From Anaerolineales bacterium (lineage in GTDB: Bacteria > Chloroflexota > Anaerolineae > Anaerolineales > UBA11579), in NCBI GenBank assembly GCA_019637755.1, contig JAHBVC010000002.1:529027-593026 (forward strand): a DNA stretch of 64,000 bases, given 5' to 3'. A program made the translations under genes and the position numbers. Position 1 is the stretch's first letter, and each line of letters begins with the position of its first letter. This document shows positions 9,603 to 48,602 of the stretch, piece after piece. The notes beneath the pieces are model-generated. The model saw nothing but the letters and a program-made list of their open reading frames with translations. It had not been told where the DNA came from and searched no databases.

Positions 9603-10763
9603 TCAGGGCGTTTGATCTTGCAGGTAGACGCGCGGCACGCGCGTATTGATATTGGTGAGGATCTCGTAGGGGATCGTGCCCGCCCAACTGGCCAACTCTT
9701 CCACGGTGATGTGTTGCTCGCCGCTCTGGCCCACCAGGATGATCTCATCTTCGTTGAAGGCTGAGTCGTGCTCGATATTGACCATGAACTGATCCATGCA
9801 GATGGTGCCCACCACCGGATAGCGCTGGCCTTTGATCAGCACCTGGGCCTTGCCTGACATGGCGCGGAAGTAGCCATCGCCATAGCCCACCGGCACGGTC
9901 ACCACGCGCACCGGGTGATCGCTCTGCCAGGTGGAGCCATAGCTGACCGGGTGCCCGGGGCGCACCACTTTGAAATAGACGATGCGCGAGGCCCAGGTGA
10001 GCGCCGGCTGCACCGCCACGCTGCGCTGCGCCTGGGCAGAGGGATAGACGCCGTAGAGCAGGATGCCGGGGCGCACCATATCAAGCCAGCTTTCGGGCAA
10101 CTGCAGCACCGCACCGGAGTTGGCCATATGGCGCACGGGCGTGGGCAGGCTGTGACGCTCGTAGAAGCGCAGCACTTCCTGAAAGCGTTCTACTTGCAAA
10201 CGCGCCGAGCTTAATTCGGCGGCATCAGCATTAGCAAAGTGCGAGAAGATGCCCTCGACGGCAACATGCTTGCAAGCCAACGTGGCCTCCAGCAGGCCCT
10301 CGGCGTTGTAGTAGTGCACGCCGATGCGCTCCATGCCAGTATCGATCTTGAGGTGCACGCGCGCGGTGACGCCCGCGGCGGCGGCGGCTGCCTCGACCTG
10401 CTCCAGCTTTTGGATCGAGGATACCGTCAGGGTCAGGTTGTGCTGCAGGAACAGCGGCGCCTGGCTGCCGAGGATGCCGCCCAACACCAGGATCGGCGTG
10501 GTGACGCCGGCCTCGCGCAGCAGGATACCCTCCTCGAGATAGGCAACGCCAATGCGCGCCACCCCCAGGCTCTGCATATACTGCCCTACGCGCACCAGGC
10601 CGTGCCCGTAGGCATTGGCTTTGAGGATCGGCATGACCTGGGCGGCGCCCACATGCGCCTGGATGGCGCGCAGGTTGCTGCCCAGCCGCGCCAGATCGAT
10701 CTGGACATGGGTCGGGCGCAGGTCCGCCGTGGTGCTGATGGTGGGGTGATTGCTGATTTGCAT
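9603..10763 (-). CDS. alr: Alanine racemase
   Basis: PLP enzyme that supplies D-alanine for peptidoglycan. 386 residues, normal length. The PLP lysine is in MPILKANAYGHG near residue 50, the catalytic tyrosine is in PVSYGSTW, and GYGDGYFRAM and VGTICMDQFMVN are also characteristic. Upstream of the ATG, TAAAAT lies 9 nt away with TTGAAG/TTTGAA 15-16 nt further up, so the mRNA may be leaderless. Probably transcribed on its own or with lspA-rluD. Confidence 0.95.
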   Translation of the reverse strand: MQISNHPTISTTADLRPTHVQIDLARLGSNLRAIQAHVGAAQVMPILKANAYGHGLVRVGQYMQSLGVARIGVAYLEEGILLREAGVTTPILVLGGILGSQAPLFLQHNLTLTVSSIQKLEQVEAAAAAAGVTARVHLKIDTGMERIGVHYYNAEGLLEATLACKHVAVEGIFSHFANADAAELSSARLQVERFQEVLRFYERHSLPTPVRHMANSGAVLQLPESWLDMVRPGILLYGVYPSAQAQRSVAVQPALTWASRIVYFKVVRPGHPVSYGSTWQSDHPVRVVTVPVGYGDGYFRAMSGKAQVLIKGQRYPVVGTICMDQFMVNIEHDSAFNEDEIILVGQSGEQHITVEELASWAGTIPYEILTNINTRVPRVYLQDQTP

Positions 10764-41141: not shown

Positions 41142-44100
41142 ATGACTATTCTGCTGACCAAGGTGCGTGCCCCGCAACGTCGCAAGGACGTGCTGCGGCG
41201 CGTGCGCCTGGTGGATACGCTGCACCAAAACCTGCACCGCAAGCTGACCTTTGTATCGGCGCCGGCGGGCTACGGCAAAACCACGCTGCTGGTGGATTTT
41301 GCCGCTGATGTAGATGCTCACGTCTGCTGGTATCGCGTAGGGCCGGAGGATGGCGATCTGGTGCAATTTGCCCTGCACATTGTGGCCGCCTTCCAGCAGC
41401 AATTCCCCGGCTTCGGCGAAGCCCTGGAGGAACACCTGAACACGCCCGGTGCCACGCCGGATGCGCCCAGCATTGCTACTGAGCTGATCAATGCGATCCA
41501 GGAGCAGGTCAAAGATTTTTGTGTGCTGGTGCTGGATGACTATCATCTGGCAGGCGAGAACCAGCAGATCGTCGATTTTCTCGAAAGCCTGCTGGAGCAT
41601 CTGCCCGACCATTTGCGTATTCTGATCGGCTCGCGCAGCGTTTACGGCATCCCCGCCGCCAGCCTGTATATTCGTGATGAGCTAGTGACGATCAGCGCGG
41701 ATGAGTTGCGCTTCCGCGCCGATGAGCTGCAAAAGCTGGTGCTGCAAAACTATCGCATGCGGCTGACGCAGGAGGAAGCCGAGGAGCTGGCCAAGCGTGC
41801 TGACGGATGGATCGTGGCGCTGTTGCTGGCGGTGCGCGCCATCAGCCACGGCGCGCTGCCGCGCTTCCTGGGGGACACCGAGCAGGTTTACACCTACTTG
41901 GCCGAAGAAGTCGTCAACCAACAAAGCGAAGAGCTGCGGGCGTTTATGCTGGGCGCCTCGGTGTTCAGCGATTTTAGCGAAGCGCAGTGTAACTTCCTGC
42001 TGCAACGCCAGGATTCGGGCCAGATGCTGCGCGCTCTCGAAGAACGCAACTTGTTCGTCAGCCGCACCGAAACGCGCGAGGGGACCAGCTACCGCTTCCA
42101 CCAGTTATTTGCCGAATTCCTGCAGGATTACTTCGCACGGCATGACGCCGCACGCCTGCACCACTTGCAAAGCCGCGCCGCCGAATGGCATTTTGCCCGC
42201 CAGGAATGGGAGAGCGCGGTAGCCTTCAAACTGGCCGCCGGCGAAACCGAGCAGGCCGCCGAGTGGATGGATGCCGCCGCCGAGCACTTCTACACCACCG
42301 GGCGCCAGGCCCTGCTGGCGCGCTGGCTGGAAGAATTAGGCACGGCGCCGGCCCTGTGCCAATTGGCGCCACGCCTGCTGCTCTACCAGGCTAAATCGCT
42401 CGGCAACCAAAACCAATTTGAGGAGTGCCTCAAGCTGCTGGCCGAAGCCGAGCCGGTGCTGCGTGACCGTGGTGATGTACAGCTATTGGCCAATGCGCTG
42501 ATCACGCGTGGCATGGTCTATCGTTTTACCGGCAATACCAATGGCGCCATCGGCCTGGCCGATGCAGCACAGGAGTTGTTGAGCGAGACACGCTCCTACC
42601 AGTGGTACCAAGCCGAACGTTTGCGCGGCGTTTCCTTGCACTTGCAGGGCCAGACCCGCACGGGCATCCATCACCTGGAAGATGCGGTGCGCGGCTTGCG
42701 CCAACTGGCCGCCGAAGGGCAAGACAAGCTCAAAGGGGTATACGTCTTCAATCTGGCTGAATGCCTGAGCGATCTAGGCTGGATCCATATTGTCAACGGG
42801 CAGATCCTGCTGGCACAGCAAGCGTTTCAGGAAGCATTGGATATTCATGTCAGCATCCGCAGCAATCTGGGGGCGTTAGCGGCGGCGCGCAACAACATCG
42901 CTTATCTGCACCACCAGGTAGGCCACTACCCCGCCGCCTGGAAGGAGTACTCGCTGGCATTGGGGCACGCCCACGCCTCAGGGCAGGTGCGCGCCGAGAT
43001 TGCCATTCTGAGCGGCCAGGGGGAGCTGCTGCTGGACCTGGGCGAGCTGGCGGAGGCGGAGGCGGTTTTCGAACACGCCTTGCAGCTTGGCCAGCGTGAC
43101 GCGCAACTGGACCTGGCCTTGATCTATGCCGGCCAGGCGCGCGTGCAGCGCCTGCAGGGCAATGGCAACGAGGCGATGGCGTTGCTGCGCCAGGCCGCCA
43201 GCAAACCCAGCAACACCTTTGGCAGCGATGACTATGCTCTGGAATTGGGCTGCATTTATCTAGCGATGGGCCAAACCGTACTGGCACGCGAAGAATTCGC
43301 CAAGTGCCTGGTTAATGCCCAAGACGGCCAGCCACGCCCCAGCACGCCGCTGGCCGCCTTTCACCAGGCGCTGCTGCTGCACGCCGCAGGCGAGCTGCCG
43401 GCTGCCGAGGATCTGTTTGCCCTGGCGCTGCAGATCGCCGCACGCCTGGGCTATGACCAGTTCCTGGTGGTAGCGGCACAACGCCACCTGGAGGCGTTGG
43501 CCCGCGCGCTGGCCGATGTGCAGCTGCCCGCGCTGGAGAAGTTGCATGCCCGTGCAGCAGCCTTCCAGCCGGGGCGCGCCAACCTGGGCCCGCCCAGCCC
43601 GGTGGAGCAAGTGCCCGATACCAACCTGGAGGTGCACGCCTTTGGCAGCAGCACGGTAAGCAAGGATGGCGCCGCGATCCACAGCGCGGTGTGGCGTTCT
43701 AGCCGTGCCAAGGCGCTCTTCTTTTATATATTGGATCAAGGCAGGGTGCGCAAAGAAGCCATCGGCCTGGATTTCTGGCCAGACTTCAGCATCAGTAAGA
43801 TCAGCAGCAACTTCCACGCCACGCTATGGCGTGTGCGCCAGGCGCTAGGCTTCAAGGAAGCCATCGTTTTCGAAGACGAAAGCTACAGCTTGCACCACAG
43901 TCTGCACGTATGGTACGACGTGGCTGAATTTCAAAATTATCTGGCGATGGCCGGGGCCAGCGGGCTGGCGGATGCCGAGCGGGCCGAGCTGCTGCGCCAG
44001 GCGATCCGCCTGTACCGTGGGCCCTTTATGGAAGACCTGTACATGGAATGGGTAGACCAGCGCCGCGAGGTGCTGCGCGGCCGCTACCTGGATGCCTTGA

Positions 44101-44354
44101 TAAGCCTGGGTGAGATCGAGATGCGTGGCAAGCGCTTCCGCGAAGCGCGCGAGACCTATGAACGCATCGTCGCCAGCGACCCGTATCGTGATGAAGCGCA
44201 CCTGGCCCTGATGAAGAGCATGGTCGCCTCGGGCGCCACCTCCACCGCGCTGGCCCACTATAAGGACTATAAGGCCCTGCTACGCCATGAACTGAACGCC
44301 GAGCCGATCGAGGCGCTGCAGGAGTATTACCAACAATTGATCATCAACGTGTAG
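41142..44354 (+). CDS. MalT-like STAND ATPase with C-terminal winged-helix/BTAD (SARP) module
   Basis: 1070 residues, a large signal-integrating transcription regulator. N-terminus TKVRAPQRRKDVLRR resembles MalT/LuxR-type STAND proteins; Walker A SAPAGYGKTTLL (39-50), Walker B FCVLVLDDYHLA (126-137), and the GSR sensor loop LIGSRSVYG. About 350-830 is helical TPR-like repeats. From about 835 a winged helix (AKALFFYILDQGRVRKEAIG) is followed by the BTAD (about 930-1070: LYRGPFMEDLYMEWVDQRRE). This puts the DNA-binding module at the end, unlike MalT's LuxR-type HTH. It precedes two small peptide genes and may control them. Confidence 0.9.
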   Translation: MTILLTKVRAPQRRKDVLRRVRLVDTLHQNLHRKLTFVSAPAGYGKTTLLVDFAADVDAHVCWYRVGPEDGDLVQFALHIVAAFQQQFPGFGEALEEHLNTPGATPDAPSIATELINAIQEQVKDFCVLVLDDYHLAGENQQIVDFLESLLEHLPDHLRILIGSRSVYGIPAASLYIRDELVTISADELRFRADELQKLVLQNYRMRLTQEEAEELAKRADGWIVALLLAVRAISHGALPRFLGDTEQVYTYLAEEVVNQQSEELRAFMLGASVFSDFSEAQCNFLLQRQDSGQMLRALEERNLFVSRTETREGTSYRFHQLFAEFLQDYFARHDAARLHHLQSRAAEWHFARQEWESAVAFKLAAGETEQAAEWMDAAAEHFYTTGRQALLARWLEELGTAPALCQLAPRLLLYQAKSLGNQNQFEECLKLLAEAEPVLRDRGDVQLLANALITRGMVYRFTGNTNGAIGLADAAQELLSETRSYQWYQAERLRGVSLHLQGQTRTGIHHLEDAVRGLRQLAAEGQDKLKGVYVFNLAECLSDLGWIHIVNGQILLAQQAFQEALDIHVSIRSNLGALAAARNNIAYLHHQVGHYPAAWKEYSLALGHAHASGQVRAEIAILSGQGELLLDLGELAEAEAVFEHALQLGQRDAQLDLALIYAGQARVQRLQGNGNEAMALLRQAASKPSNTFGSDDYALELGCIYLAMGQTVLAREEFAKCLVNAQDGQPRPSTPLAAFHQALLLHAAGELPAAEDLFALALQIAARLGYDQFLVVAAQRHLEALARALADVQLPALEKLHARAAAFQPGRANLGPPSPVEQVPDTNLEVHAFGSSTVSKDGAAIHSAVWRSSRAKALFFYILDQGRVRKEAIGLDFWPDFSISKISSNFHATLWRVRQALGFKEAIVFEDESYSLHHSLHVWYDVAEFQNYLAMAGASGLADAERAELLRQAIRLYRGPFMEDLYMEWVDQRREVLRGRYLDALISLGEIEMRGKRFREARETYERIVASDPYRDEAHLALMKSMVASGATSTALAHYKDYKALLRHELNAEPIEALQEYYQQLIINV

Positions 44355-44449
44355 AACAAAAATACGCACCCTTGCGTTTGCACTTCACCGGTGCGCAACC
44401 GGAAACGTGCCAAACGGCAAGGAAATTGCAACTTAATCGCCAGGTAATG

Positions 44450-44479
44450 AAAAAGCTACTCGAAATTGGGTGGCTTTTT
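44450..44479 (+). terminator. Terminator after the MalT-like/BTAD gene
   Basis: AAAAAGCTACTC / GGGTGGCTTTTT, 12 pairs including two U-G, 6-nt loop, followed by T. It lies about 95 nt past the stop codon; the next base begins a TTGACA. Confidence 0.8.
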
Positions 44480-44523
44480 TTGACATTTGGTCATAGCTGC
44501 GTTCATAGGTGCATTCGTAGAAT
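44480..44523 (+). promoter_or_regulatory. Candidate promoter region of the repeat-peptide gene
   Basis: Perfect TTGACA at 44480-44485 abuts the T tract of the upstream terminator; the hexamer at 17 nt (TCATAG, 44503) is a poor -10. A better -10, TAGAAT, lies at 44518-44523 but lacks a -35. Either start leaves room for the AGGAG at 44542. Confidence 0.5.
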
Positions 44524-44556
44524 GTGGCCAATCTAATCTACAGGAGATTTACCAAC

Positions 44557-44751
44557 ATGATCAAGCAGACCAGCTTCTCTTACCCCATCGGTGGCGGCAT
44601 CGGCTCCGGCCCGCAGGCTAGCTACCCTATCGGCGGCGGCATCGGCTCCGGCCCGCAGGCCAGCTACCCCATTGGCGGCGGCATCGGTTCCGGCCCGCAG
44701 GCCAGCTACCCCATCGGCGGCGGCATCGGCTCCGGCCCGGCCACGCGCTAA
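44557..44751 (+). CDS. 64-residue peptide of four 14-residue Gly-rich repeats
   Basis: M-I-K-Q-T-S-F followed by three perfect copies of SYPIGGGIGSGPQA and a fourth ending SYPIGGGIGSGPATR. AGGAG 10 nt before the ATG. The codons differ between copies at six places (TCT/AGC, GGT/GGC, GCT/GCC, CCT/CCC, ATC/ATT, GGC/GGT) and every change is synonymous, including a Ser box switch, so the amino-acid sequence is selected. No family recognised. It has no signal peptide or membrane helix. The product could be a multi-copy precursor cut into identical short peptides, or a structural repeat protein. Confidence 0.85.
   Translation: MIKQTSFSYPIGGGIGSGPQASYPIGGGIGSGPQASYPIGGGIGSGPQASYPIGGGIGSGPATR
44578..44739 (+). 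repeat. In-frame 42-bp tandem repeat, nearly four copies
   Basis: Units start at 44578, 44620, 44662 and 44704; the last is truncated after 12 codons. Contiguous, without spacers. Confidence 0.95.
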
Positions 44752-44790
44752 TCCAGCCCTGACCTTTACGCACACCCAACGGAGACCCCA

Positions 44791-45006
44791 ATGTCCAAGC
44801 TCAAACTGAACGCTATTGCCACTCTCGCGCTGGTAGACCAGGATTTCAAGGCAGCCATGCTGAGCGGCCGCTTGCAGGAAAAACTGAGCGCGTTCCAATT
44901 GAATGAAGAAGAAATGCGCGCCGTCACCGCTATCCAGGCCATGGATCTCGATCAATTCATGCACCGCCTGGGCACCCTGATTCAGGCCGCGCCCGCAGTA
45001 CACTAA
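44791..45006 (+). CDS. 71-residue NHLP/Os1348-like RiPP precursor-type protein
   Basis: GGAG 6 nt before the ATG; 39 nt after the repeat-peptide stop. All helical: ATLALVDQDFKAAMLSGRL, LSAFQLNEEEMRAVTAIQAM, LDQFMHRLGTLI. This spacing of D-x-x-F, L-x-x-F-x-L-x-x-E-E and a final amphipathic helix is what I recall of Os1348/Franean1_4349-type putative RiPP precursors common in Chloroflexota and actinobacteria. It ends in a short AAPAVH tail with no obvious core rich in Cys/Ser/Thr. Family call is from memory; the ORF itself is well supported. Confidence 0.78.
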   Translation: MSKLKLNAIATLALVDQDFKAAMLSGRLQEKLSAFQLNEEEMRAVTAIQAMDLDQFMHRLGTLIQAAPAVH

Positions 45007-45089: not shown

Positions 45090-48000
45090 ATGGATGCAAA
45101 CACAATGCTGCTGGCCTCCTTCAACGATTCACGTTCCCGTCGAGCTTCGTCGGGCAATGACTTCTCGCGTAATCTGAGCAAAGTCAAGGCCCTGATCGAG
45201 CATATTGCCGAGGCCGTATTGATTCTGCAGGCCGATAACGGCCAAGTGCTGGCGGCCAACCAGAGTGCCGTGCTGCTATTTGAAGCCGAAGAAAACCGCC
45301 TGCAGCAGCACAACTTTGAACAGCTAAGCCAAACGGGCCAGGGGGAACTGGACCGTTACCGCGCCTTGGCGCGGCAAGGCGAGACACCCGAAACGCCGTG
45401 GGCCGGGCGCACCCCTGCCGGCAAACCGATCAACGGCAAAATTCAATTAAGCCACCTACCGCTCAAAGATACGGACCTGATCCGCGTCACGATCAGCAAC
45501 CCCGAAAACCTGCCCATTCCCTGGCTGCATGAAAGCACCGATGGTCAGCATACCGATGAGCTCGCCGCGCTGGCGCTCACCGGAGCCAGCATTAGCTCCA
45601 GCCTGGATATTGACAAAGTATTGCAGGTGGTGGGGTACCAACTGATCAACCTGTTGGATGTACACACCTTTATTGCGTACGACTGGCTGGCGGATACCCA
45701 AGCCTTACGCCTGCGCCACAGCTACGACAAAGTGCCCAGCCACCCACCGCAGGCCATCGCCGCGCATATGGACGTGAGCGCCGCGCTGGAAGCGGGCCAA
45801 TCGATGCAACGCCAACGCACGCAAAGCAACCTTGCCGCCGCCGAGAAGAAGGCCTTGCAACGCGCCGGGGTGGAAACGGTATTGCTGGTGCCGCTGATCG
45901 CCCAGAGCAAGATCATCGGGTTGGTGGAATTGCAAGACCGTGAAGCACTGCGCAGCTTCTCCAGCCGTGAGATCTACCTGGCGCAAACCCTGTGCCAGCA
46001 AGCTGCAGTGGCGATCGAGAACGCGCGCCTGTTCCAAGCCACCCGCCGCCAACTGCAAGAGTTGACCATTTTGCAGCAGGTGGCCAATGCCACCACCGAG
46101 GCCAACAGCGAAGATGAGCTGATCGAAAGTGCAACCCAGCTCATTCGCCATAGTATTTATTCGGATAACTTCGGCATCATTCTGTTGGCCGAGAACAGCC
46201 AAGAATTGCACATCCACCCCTCCTATGAATCGGCGCCGGAAGTGGCCGGCAAACCGATTGCCCTGGGCGTGGGCGTCACCGGGCGCGTGGCACAAACCGG
46301 CAAGCCGATGCGCATTGCGGATGCGCGCCTGGAGCCCAACTACCTGGATTACGACAAGGCCACGCTCTCCGAGCTGTGTGTGCCGATGAAGATCGGCGAA
46401 CGCGTCATCGGCGTGATCAACACCGAAAGCCGTGAGCTGAACCACTTCACGGAAGACGATGAGCGCCTGCTCAGCACTCTGGCGGGCCAGTTGGCCACCG
46501 GTATTCAGCGCTTGCGCAATGCCAGCGCTGAAACCCGCCGTGCCCACCAGTTGGCCGTGCTGAACGAATTGACCACGCGCATGAGCGGCCTGTTGGAGCG
46601 CGAAAAGCTATTTGAAACGATTGTGGAGTGCCTGCACCGCCGCATGGGCTACTTCTCCACAGACATCACGCGTGTAGACGATGAAACGCAAGCCTACATC
46701 GTGGAGGCCAGTGCCGGCGCCTTCGAGGGCCGCGTCAACCGTCAGGGCTACAGCCAGGCCTTTGGCGTGGGCTTGCTGGGCCAGGCAGCGCAAAGCGGCG
46801 AGGTCGTGCTGGCCAACGATGTCAGCAAGGCTGCCAATTTTCACCATGTGGAAGGGCACGGCCCGATCCAATCAGAGCTGGTCATTCCGATCAAGATCTA
46901 CAAGAAGGTCTTTGCGCTACTCAACATCGAAAGCCAGCAACTGAACGCATTTGATGATTACGAAGTGGCGGCACTCTCCACCCTGGGTGATCAGATCTCC
47001 CTGTCGTTGGAAAGCATCCAGCTGTTTGAATCGACCAAGCGCCAGCTACAAGAGCTGACCATGCTGCACGCCATCACCCAGGCGGCTGTGAATGCCAAGA
47101 CCGAGAATGAGCTACTCGAACGCGCCACGGAAATCATCGGCGCCAGCTTATATACCGATAAATTCGGCTTCCTGATCATGGATGCCGAGGGCAGCGCACT
47201 GCTGGTGCACCCCTCCTATCGCGGCATCGACGAAAGCAGCCGCCAGCAGGCCGTGCCGCTCTCTCAAGGCATCACCGGCCATGTGGCCGCCACTGGCAAA
47301 GCCTGGCGCGTGCCCGATGTGTACAAAGAGCCCAATTACATGCGCGTCAACCCCAGCATGCGCTCTGAATTGTGTGTGCCGATCTTCGGCAATGACAATC
47401 GTGTGCTGGGCGTGATCAACGCCGAGAGCACACGCATCAACGCCTTCACCGAATCTGATCTGCGCTTGTTGAGCACCATCGCCGGGCAAGTCGGCACGGC
47501 GCTGGAGAAGCTGCGCCTGTTCGCGGCGGAGCGCGAACAGCGCGGCCAGGCGGAGACCTTGCGCGAAGTGGCCGCGATCCTCGGTTCAGCCGCCGACCGG
47601 GCCAGCGTGCTCAATCTGATCCTCGAGCAGCTCAAACGCGTGGTGCCCTTTGACAGTGCCTCGGTACAACTGCGGCGCGGCGACCACTTGGTGATCCACG
47701 CCGTGGCCGGTAAGCTGCCGCCGGAAACCGTGGGGCACGAATTGAACATTCAGGAAGACCGCCTGGCCCACCCGCTGCTGTTCGAACAGCGCACCCTGCT
47801 GTTCGAGGATATTGGCCAGCACCCCGATTGGATGTTGGCGCCCGGCGCGGCGCAGGTGCTCTCGTGGATCGGCGCGCCGCTGATGGCGCGCGGCGAATGC
47901 ATCGGCGTGCTGACCGTGGATGGCTATACGCGCAAGCAGTTCTCGCAGGCAGATGCCGATCTGGTGGCCTCGTTTGCCATCCATGCCGGCATTGCGCTGG

Positions 48001-48602
48001 AGAACGTGCGCCTGTTTGAAGAAGCGCAGGATGCATATCTGCAAACCGTCAGCGCCCTGGCCAGTGCCATCGACGTGCGCGACACCTACACCAGCGGGCA
48101 CAGCCAGCGCCTGGTGGACCTGGCCGTGGAAACCGGGCGCCTGCTGGGCTGCACGCCCGATGAACTGACTGATATCAAATGGGGTGCCCTACTGCACGAC
48201 ATTGGCAAGATCGGCGTACCCGATGAAATCTTACGCAAGCCCAGCTCGCTGGAAGCGGCCGAGCTCGACATCATGCGCCAGCACCCTGAGATCGGGGCGC
48301 GCATTGTGGAGCCAGTGCGCAACCTGGCCACGGTGGCGCCGATCATCCGTGCCCACCAGGAGCGCTACGACGGCACCGGCTACCCCGATGGCTTGCGCGG
48401 CGAGCAGATCCCCAAGATCGCGCGCATCATCAGCGTGGCGGATGCCTATGTAGCCATGACCGATGAACGCGTCTATCGCCAGGCACGCACCCAGGCGGAG
48501 GCCATCGCTGAGCTGAAGCGCTGTAGCGGCTCACAGTTTGACCCGAATGTAGTGCAAGCCTTTTTGCAGGCGTTGGAAAATTTCAGAGCGCGCAACAACT
48601 AA
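45090..48602 (+). CDS. PAS-GAF(x5)-HD-GYP sensor / cyclic-di-GMP phosphodiesterase
   Basis: 1170 residues, soluble. PAS-like domain at about 30-145, then about five GAF domains (roughly 155-320, 325-470, 490-640, 645-800, 815-980) separated by coiled linkers with repeated ATRRQLQELTILQQV-type sequence. HD-GYP domain from about 985: HDIGK at 1036-1040, DGTGYP at 1094-1099 and IISVADAYVAMT, all needed for c-di-GMP hydrolysis. ATG 45090 lacks a good Shine-Dalgarno; ATG 45105 is an alternative. It follows the two peptide genes by 83 nt. Converges with queA with a 4-nt overlap of the stops. Confidence 0.92.
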   Translation: MDANTMLLASFNDSRSRRASSGNDFSRNLSKVKALIEHIAEAVLILQADNGQVLAANQSAVLLFEAEENRLQQHNFEQLSQTGQGELDRYRALARQGETPETPWAGRTPAGKPINGKIQLSHLPLKDTDLIRVTISNPENLPIPWLHESTDGQHTDELAALALTGASISSSLDIDKVLQVVGYQLINLLDVHTFIAYDWLADTQALRLRHSYDKVPSHPPQAIAAHMDVSAALEAGQSMQRQRTQSNLAAAEKKALQRAGVETVLLVPLIAQSKIIGLVELQDREALRSFSSREIYLAQTLCQQAAVAIENARLFQATRRQLQELTILQQVANATTEANSEDELIESATQLIRHSIYSDNFGIILLAENSQELHIHPSYESAPEVAGKPIALGVGVTGRVAQTGKPMRIADARLEPNYLDYDKATLSELCVPMKIGERVIGVINTESRELNHFTEDDERLLSTLAGQLATGIQRLRNASAETRRAHQLAVLNELTTRMSGLLEREKLFETIVECLHRRMGYFSTDITRVDDETQAYIVEASAGAFEGRVNRQGYSQAFGVGLLGQAAQSGEVVLANDVSKAANFHHVEGHGPIQSELVIPIKIYKKVFALLNIESQQLNAFDDYEVAALSTLGDQISLSLESIQLFESTKRQLQELTMLHAITQAAVNAKTENELLERATEIIGASLYTDKFGFLIMDAEGSALLVHPSYRGIDESSRQQAVPLSQGITGHVAATGKAWRVPDVYKEPNYMRVNPSMRSELCVPIFGNDNRVLGVINAESTRINAFTESDLRLLSTIAGQVGTALEKLRLFAAEREQRGQAETLREVAAILGSAADRASVLNLILEQLKRVVPFDSASVQLRRGDHLVIHAVAGKLPPETVGHELNIQEDRLAHPLLFEQRTLLFEDIGQHPDWMLAPGAAQVLSWIGAPLMARGECIGVLTVDGYTRKQFSQADADLVASFAIHAGIALENVRLFEEAQDAYLQTVSALASAIDVRDTYTSGHSQRLVDLAVETGRLLGCTPDELTDIKWGALLHDIGKIGVPDEILRKPSSLEAAELDIMRQHPEIGARIVEPVRNLATVAPIIRAHQERYDGTGYPDGLRGEQIPKIARIISVADAYVAMTDERVYRQARTQAEAIAELKRCSGSQFDPNVVQAFLQALENFRARNN

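Follow-up and report, generated by a model that had tools for sequence, protein, structure and literature searches.

What is the role of a short peptide made of repeated units when its gene lies between those of two large regulatory proteins? The question was raised by a 64,000-nt stretch of an Anaerolineales genome (hereafter the window), in which a gene for a 64-aa repeat peptide (44557..44751) is followed by a gene for a 71-aa helical protein, Os71 (44791..45006), both on the forward strand. An earlier note, made from the sequence alone, had placed the locus between a MalT-like/BTAD regulator and a PAS-GAF-HD-GYP protein. Pfam and NCBIfam searches confirmed this arrangement, with a 1070-aa MalT-like STAND-TPR-BTAD/SARP regulator encoded upstream (41142..44354, forward strand) and a 1170-aa PAS-GAF-HD-GYP protein, a probable c-di-GMP phosphodiesterase and likely output of the system, encoded downstream (45090..48602, forward strand). 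The module looks like a peptide-signalling circuit, of which we found no description. Our analysis goes beyond the earlier account in three respects: an operator, single-copy orthologous precursors, and a parallel to AfsR-AfsS.

The repeat-peptide gene and its conservation in the genus

The repeat peptide consists of MIKQTSF, three full SYPIGGGIGSGPQA units (44578-44619, 44620-44661, and 44662-44703), a fourth unit cut at SYPIGGGIGSGP (44704-44739), and a closing ATR, all read on the forward strand. The 64-residue product described earlier is confirmed, with the correction that three of its units are complete and the fourth is not. A Shine-Dalgarno sequence, AGGAG, precedes the gene (44542..44546, forward strand), and such sites were also found before its orthologues. 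Analysis of the window with TRF determined the underlying 42-bp array (3.8 copies, 93% match, score 283) to be by far its strongest tandem repeat. Six codon columns vary between the units and all six, including TCT/AGC for Ser, are synonymous, in agreement with the earlier note.

The gene is present in 11 of 11 genomes of the genus, with the same neighbours each time. The unit is repeated four or five times per genome, and each genome or small group of genomes has its own version (SYPIGGGIGSGPQA, NHPIGGGIGTGPQA, HHPVGGGIGTGPGLS, NQPRGGGIGTGPLF, NQPLGGGIGTGPSF, NRPVGGGVGGYPQS, or NQPLSGGIGGFPIA). Despite many synonymous differences, a 9-residue core is amino-acid-identical among the units of each genome; when ten residues were compared, all within-genome amino-acid differences between units fell in the first position. 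Variable sites numbered 84 synonymous vs. 21 in the first-position column, with about 30% synonymous expected at random; the pooled binomial value for this excess is not a strict probability, as related genomes share some of the unit differences. The units differ between species yet stay identical within one genome, and such joint change is as expected if each unit does the same job. Selection at the peptide level, argued in the earlier note from the window, is therefore borne out by core units that remain identical under synonymous divergence, indicative of purifying selection. A chance ORF and a recent duplication were ruled out by the conservation in 11 genomes together with the synonymous divergence of the units.

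The regulator and its putative operator

The regulator comprises a STAND ATPase (residues ~6-397), a TPR sensor region (~400-800), and a winged helix with BTAD that together form a SARP domain (~827-1070). Comparison with PDB profiles identified MalT (8bob, E 2.9e-47) and AfsR (8k60, E 1.6e-14), and the AF2 model of the protein (pLDDT 83) was matched by Foldseek to 8bob, 6mfv, and 8k60, the last with a TM of 0.76. The TPRs are backed by Pfam, by the PDB profile, and by the AF2 model.

Regulator and peptide genes are separated by ~200 bp in the window and are adjacent in most loci. Upstream of the peptide gene, GTTCATA is repeated directly in tandem every 12 bp, and a TAnnnT -10 box lies 9-10 bp beyond the repeat. 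The site is conserved across the order. In the window the putative operator reads GGTCATA-GCTGC-GTTCATA (44489..44507, forward strand; score 13/14, p 0.0025), with a weaker third copy, ATTCGTA, at 44513-44519 and a putative -10 box, TAGAAT, at 44518..44523 on the same strand. The latter begins 10 bp past the second repeat, the distance being 9-10 bp in most loci. An apparent terminator for the regulator gene lies immediately before the operator, at 44449-44483; this stretch closes with a T run and is similar in several genus members.

In operator tests, which count related lineages as separate, the direct repeat with its -10 box gave p<0.01 at 15 of 25 loci (combined p 6e-19). Distant lineages have other half-sites (TTTTGATGCCT, TTTTGCATCCT, CGTGAGAG, GGAAGCCT) in the same position, again as an 11- or 12-bp direct repeat with a -10-like box (p<0.05 at 17 of 20 loci). 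No direct repeat was detected upstream of the peptide in G003, and no significant one in G518, G688, and G697. An exact search of 101 genomes returned 24 sites, 10 of them at a peptide promoter, vs. about 6 matches for the reversed control pattern in the same search; the exact matches in G054, G067, G082, G013, G020, G064, G088, and G058 were not tied to a promoter. A looser search of the window's own genome gave one good site, the putative operator (here matched at 44490-44508), besides one shifted overlapping match and three two-mismatch matches elsewhere. Single-mismatch matches in G011 (C16, C30, and C62) were discounted as chance, since they lie within or next to coding genes and have no promoter context. 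A second operator of G018 (C10:7114-7132; L179, reverse strand, ~2368) shares a 19-bp identity with the peptide-promoter one and has a -10 box, TACAAT, with no evident peptide gene behind it; perhaps it belongs to a small RNA or is a remnant.

Sites of SARP activators are direct repeats at 11 or 22 bp that overlap the -35 and end 8 bp from the -10 (PMC10936776). Measured against this rule, the repeats described here are in the right place, with a period of 12 bp in most loci (11 bp in a few) and with the -10 box 9-10 bp away. Because a SARP-type repeat at the promoter is paired with a C-terminal SARP domain in the regulator, there is strong reason, as far as sequence can tell, to regard the regulator as acting on the peptide promoter, and its control of this adjacent promoter is highly probable. 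The link between the peptide and its flanking regulator, previously suggested, thus gains a conserved SARP-type operator.

Precursors and partners in relatives

Our main result lies outside the locus of the window: across the order and the class, the slot between regulator and Os71 holds small precursors. The relatives with names were Anaerolineales and Chloroflexi MAGs. Outside the genus the precursors are 34-64 aa long, or longer where the tail is multiplied (34-109 aa overall), and have a basic N-terminus, a hydrophobic segment, and a short Gly/Pro/Ser tail of ~7-13 residues, often after A-x-A. Examples of their ends, with a slash before the tail, are ...FAFA/GPIPGGAGS, ...TAYA/DGPSPGPVGG, ...LAAA/GPTGGGGS, and ...YAWA/EGVLIPGGQGVN; a further one is ...ASGAPVGGSGF. 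In a simple check of hydropathy and A-x-A, the precursors outside the genus look Sec-like.

Using criteria fixed after the first loci had been seen, we found a precursor-type ORF with ATG and Shine-Dalgarno sequence in 32 of 38 regulator-to-Os71 gaps outside the genus. With dinucleotide shuffling the expected number was 0.0, and the reverse strand contained none. Such an ORF was not found in G024, G026, G039, and G051, loci with the regulator. A second set comprised 20 loci picked by Os71 match once the pattern was known. The majority had a regulator orthologue upstream in the same orientation, and a precursor was present in most of these; loci without a nearby regulator were mainly weak Os71 matches. 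As loci were sampled by Os71, the set leans towards those that keep it and would overlook modules lacking the gene. Recurrence in relatives, to which the earlier note had looked for support, was accordingly seen for the trio of regulator, peptide, and Os71 throughout the order and class.

Between close relatives the tails are generally better conserved than the heads, except in the G018/G023 pair, where the tail differs also in length; between families they vary widely. Outside the window's genus the tail was multiplied independently at least two more times: G021 has seven YGPIPGGVGG-type units where its congener G018 has one AGPIPGGIGG, and G282 has the tail unit LLANPPVGGGSSAT in three copies. 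By position and composition, the window's repeat unit is tied to the single-copy precursor tails, with the exact letters differing. In G011 (L077) the slot between regulator and Os71 holds two near-identical precursor genes in a row, both ending in the tail GPIPGGAGS; the doubling there concerns the whole precursor gene, not the tail.

The peptides of the window's genus have no hydrophobic segment (maximum 15-residue hydropathy ~0.3 from the annotated start region). The signal sequence has been lost in this genus, so that export there is uncertain. Four oligopeptide-binding (SBP_bac_5) proteins are encoded in the window's own genome, a possible route for peptide import.

Os71 is the constant partner of the module and is weakly Os1348-like. 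It scored 19.1 bits (E 0.0011) against the Os1348/NHLP model NF038399, below the curated cut-off of 40 bits, and its best solved relative was Os1348 (6lk7, E 0.021). The AF2 model has five helices (pLDDT 81), and fold searches with it (Foldseek best E 5.5, VIA best Z 4.8) were uninformative for a small helical protein of this kind. A viral or phage origin was rejected, since no Os71 relative was found in viral_contigs. In one genus member (G003, L061), two Os71 genes of equal match score, at 9629-9838 and 10219-10428, flank the repeat-peptide gene, a local duplication. Other members of the phylum have more distant Os1348-like proteins of ~72 aa (L094-L105, L111-L113), several with ...LSKSAGRGFF-like ends and with no evident regulator-peptide module within 1.5-kb flanks; these possibly represent a different use of the fold.

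In most of the order's modules an HD-GYP gene comes after Os71, but some lineages do not have it there. Two further exact operators of G011, each with a -10-like box, stand before genes for GAF-HD-GYP and MASE3-GAF-HD-GYP proteins. Both observations reinforce the link between peptide and HD-GYP protein drawn in the earlier note, and we infer from these sequences that the regulon includes c-di-GMP turnover. The same genome has an exact operator with a -10-like box (G011:C9:23144-23162, L174) before the gene for a 508-aa metallo-beta-lactamase-fold (PF00753) protein, possibly a further target of the regulator. Three loci (L146, L159, and L163, in G117, G126, and G082) have a membrane protein gene between peptide and Os71. 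Pfam places its product in DUF5317 for G117 and G082, and the G126 protein is similar; it is a candidate processing or transport partner of the peptide. Recurring partners in the modules examined are thus the regulator, Os71, and HD-GYP or DUF5317, with neither a modification enzyme nor a peptidase-exporter among them.

Proposed circuit and comparison with known systems

The following circuit builds on observed features, namely the conserved genes and the conserved operator-like repeat. The STAND-TPR-SARP regulator would bind the tandem direct repeat at 44489-44507, which would take the place of a -35 box, and would thereby activate the peptide gene and, behind it, the genes for the 71-aa and HD-GYP proteins. 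The predicted product contains a short Gly/Pro peptide in several copies; this peptide, or a proteolytic fragment of the product, would be the ligand of the regulator's TPR sensor. The circuit would then be an autoinducing peptide-signalling loop, whose activity would lower c-di-GMP through the HD-GYP protein. In most relatives, a Sec-type precursor would release its tail of ~7-13 residues outside the cell. As the window's genus has lost the signal sequence and multiplied the unit four- or fivefold, the peptide would there be exported another way or act inside the cell.

That the peptide is the regulator's own signal is the most likely reading, held with moderate confidence; sensing is suggested by the TPR region, the dedicated pairing, the precursor anatomy, and the unit multiplication. 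For the whole autoinduction loop, with activation, sensing, and c-di-GMP output, we consider the case evenly balanced. Somewhat less likely than not is the proposal of a new Chloroflexota class of peptide cell-cell signalling, with a STAND-TPR-SARP activator as receptor, a short Gly/Pro autoinducer often multiplied in its precursor, a direct-repeat operator of 12-bp period that co-evolves with the receptor, and c-di-GMP turnover as output. Because its genus has lost the signal sequence, the intercellular version is less well supported for the window's genome.

The main rival to the loop is a relay of the AfsR-AfsS kind, in which the regulator activates the peptide gene and the peptide, instead of being its signal, acts as an effector elsewhere, for example on RNA polymerase or the HD-GYP protein; this effector would be cytoplasmic in the window's genus and membrane-bound in relatives. 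AfsR is a large SARP-STAND-TPR regulator that acts through direct repeats at the -35 to activate afsS; its target and effector, AfsS, is a 63-aa protein with three 12-aa repeats (PMC10936776, PMC2267785). The window's gene suits such a relay, having 64 aa, four 14-aa repeats, no signal sequence, and the same kind of promoter. Relatives, however, encode signal-like precursors that end in tails of only ~7-13 residues, and the same tail can be single or sevenfold within one genus; we judge the relay rather unlikely.

The earlier note had left the choice between signalling and a secreted or structural product. We favour the signalling loop; the structural product is possible and less likely. Glycine-rich repeats are common in structural proteins, and relatives do encode small proteins with a membrane segment, so a secreted or cell-surface glycine-rich repeat protein under dedicated control might be considered. 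The shortness of the relatives' tails (~7-13 residues), the dedication of a regulator and operator to a 64-aa product, and the coupling to HD-GYP genes all speak against it, and we regard it as quite improbable. A RiPP pathway, where the repeat ORF would be a multi-core precursor, Os71 would act as leader or recognition protein in trans, and a modifying enzyme would be encoded elsewhere, appears just as improbable. Multi-core precursors do occur among RiPPs and Os71 is weakly similar to the leader-like Os1348/NHLP family, but it falls short of the family cut-off, the modules have no recurring modification enzyme or peptidase-exporter, and in many species the tails are poor in Cys, Ser, and Thr or lack them. 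The suggestion that the 71-aa protein is itself a RiPP precursor was not supported, given its low score, its end in a helical domain with no core peptide behind, and the lack of a recurring modification enzyme beside it.

Chloroflexota are abundant in wastewater and sediment communities, and no peptide-signalling system was found for this phylum in the literature searched, whose coverage excluded most subscription papers. The regulator, the probable operator, and the peptide co-occur across many genera, so that synthetic parts could be used to examine the ligand, the receptor, and the DNA site one by one.

RRNPP quorum sensing, described from Bacillota, has a five-point signature of a 10-100-aa propeptide that is Sec-secreted, a receptor of 250-500 aa with TPRs, and adjacent genes (-60 to 400 bp) (PMC10075063). 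As in Rap-Phr, PlcR-PapR, and Rgg-SHP, the gene for a TPR regulator here adjoins that for a small precursor. The precursors of relatives have a short C-terminal peptide, multiplied in some cases like the tandem peptide unit of some Phr propeptides (PMC11343458). The small propeptide, the TPR receptor, and the gene adjacency are thus shared; in contrast, the receptor has 1070 aa and is built on STAND and SARP, the window's genus lacks a Sec signal, and the phylum is Chloroflexota. Since receptor length and, in the window, Sec secretion depart from the signature, we did not file the system under RRNPP, though by analogy it may work in a like manner. The published RRNPP search tool would miss such systems, as the receptor is about twice its length limit.

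The regulator is closely similar to MalT in its N-terminal STAND ATPase (E 2.9e-47) and also has a TPR-type sensor region. MalT carries a LuxR-type DNA-binding domain and senses maltotriose, whereas the window's regulator has a SARP domain and is paired with a peptide. Os1348 of Pseudomonas sp. Os17 (NF038399, PDB 6lk7) is likewise a small helical protein with weak similarity to Os71; unlike it, Os71 lies under the family cut-off, is the fixed partner of a regulator-peptide module, and is found with no modification cluster.

AfsR-AfsS of Streptomyces likewise pairs a SARP-STAND regulator with a small partner. Common to both are a large SARP protein with STAND and TPR domains, a small repeat product as its target (compared here by size and repeat layout), and tandem direct repeats whose half-site is of the TTCA type and which overlap the -35. 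The SARP domain is C-terminal in the window's regulator vs. N-terminal in AfsR, and the repeat period is mostly 12 bp vs. 11 bp in Streptomyces SARPs. The module further differs from AfsR-AfsS in its constant Os71 and HD-GYP partners, in the signal-like precursors of relatives, and in its phylum. We know of no settled mechanism for AfsS, the small partner of AfsR, and the system described here offers an independent view of that pair.
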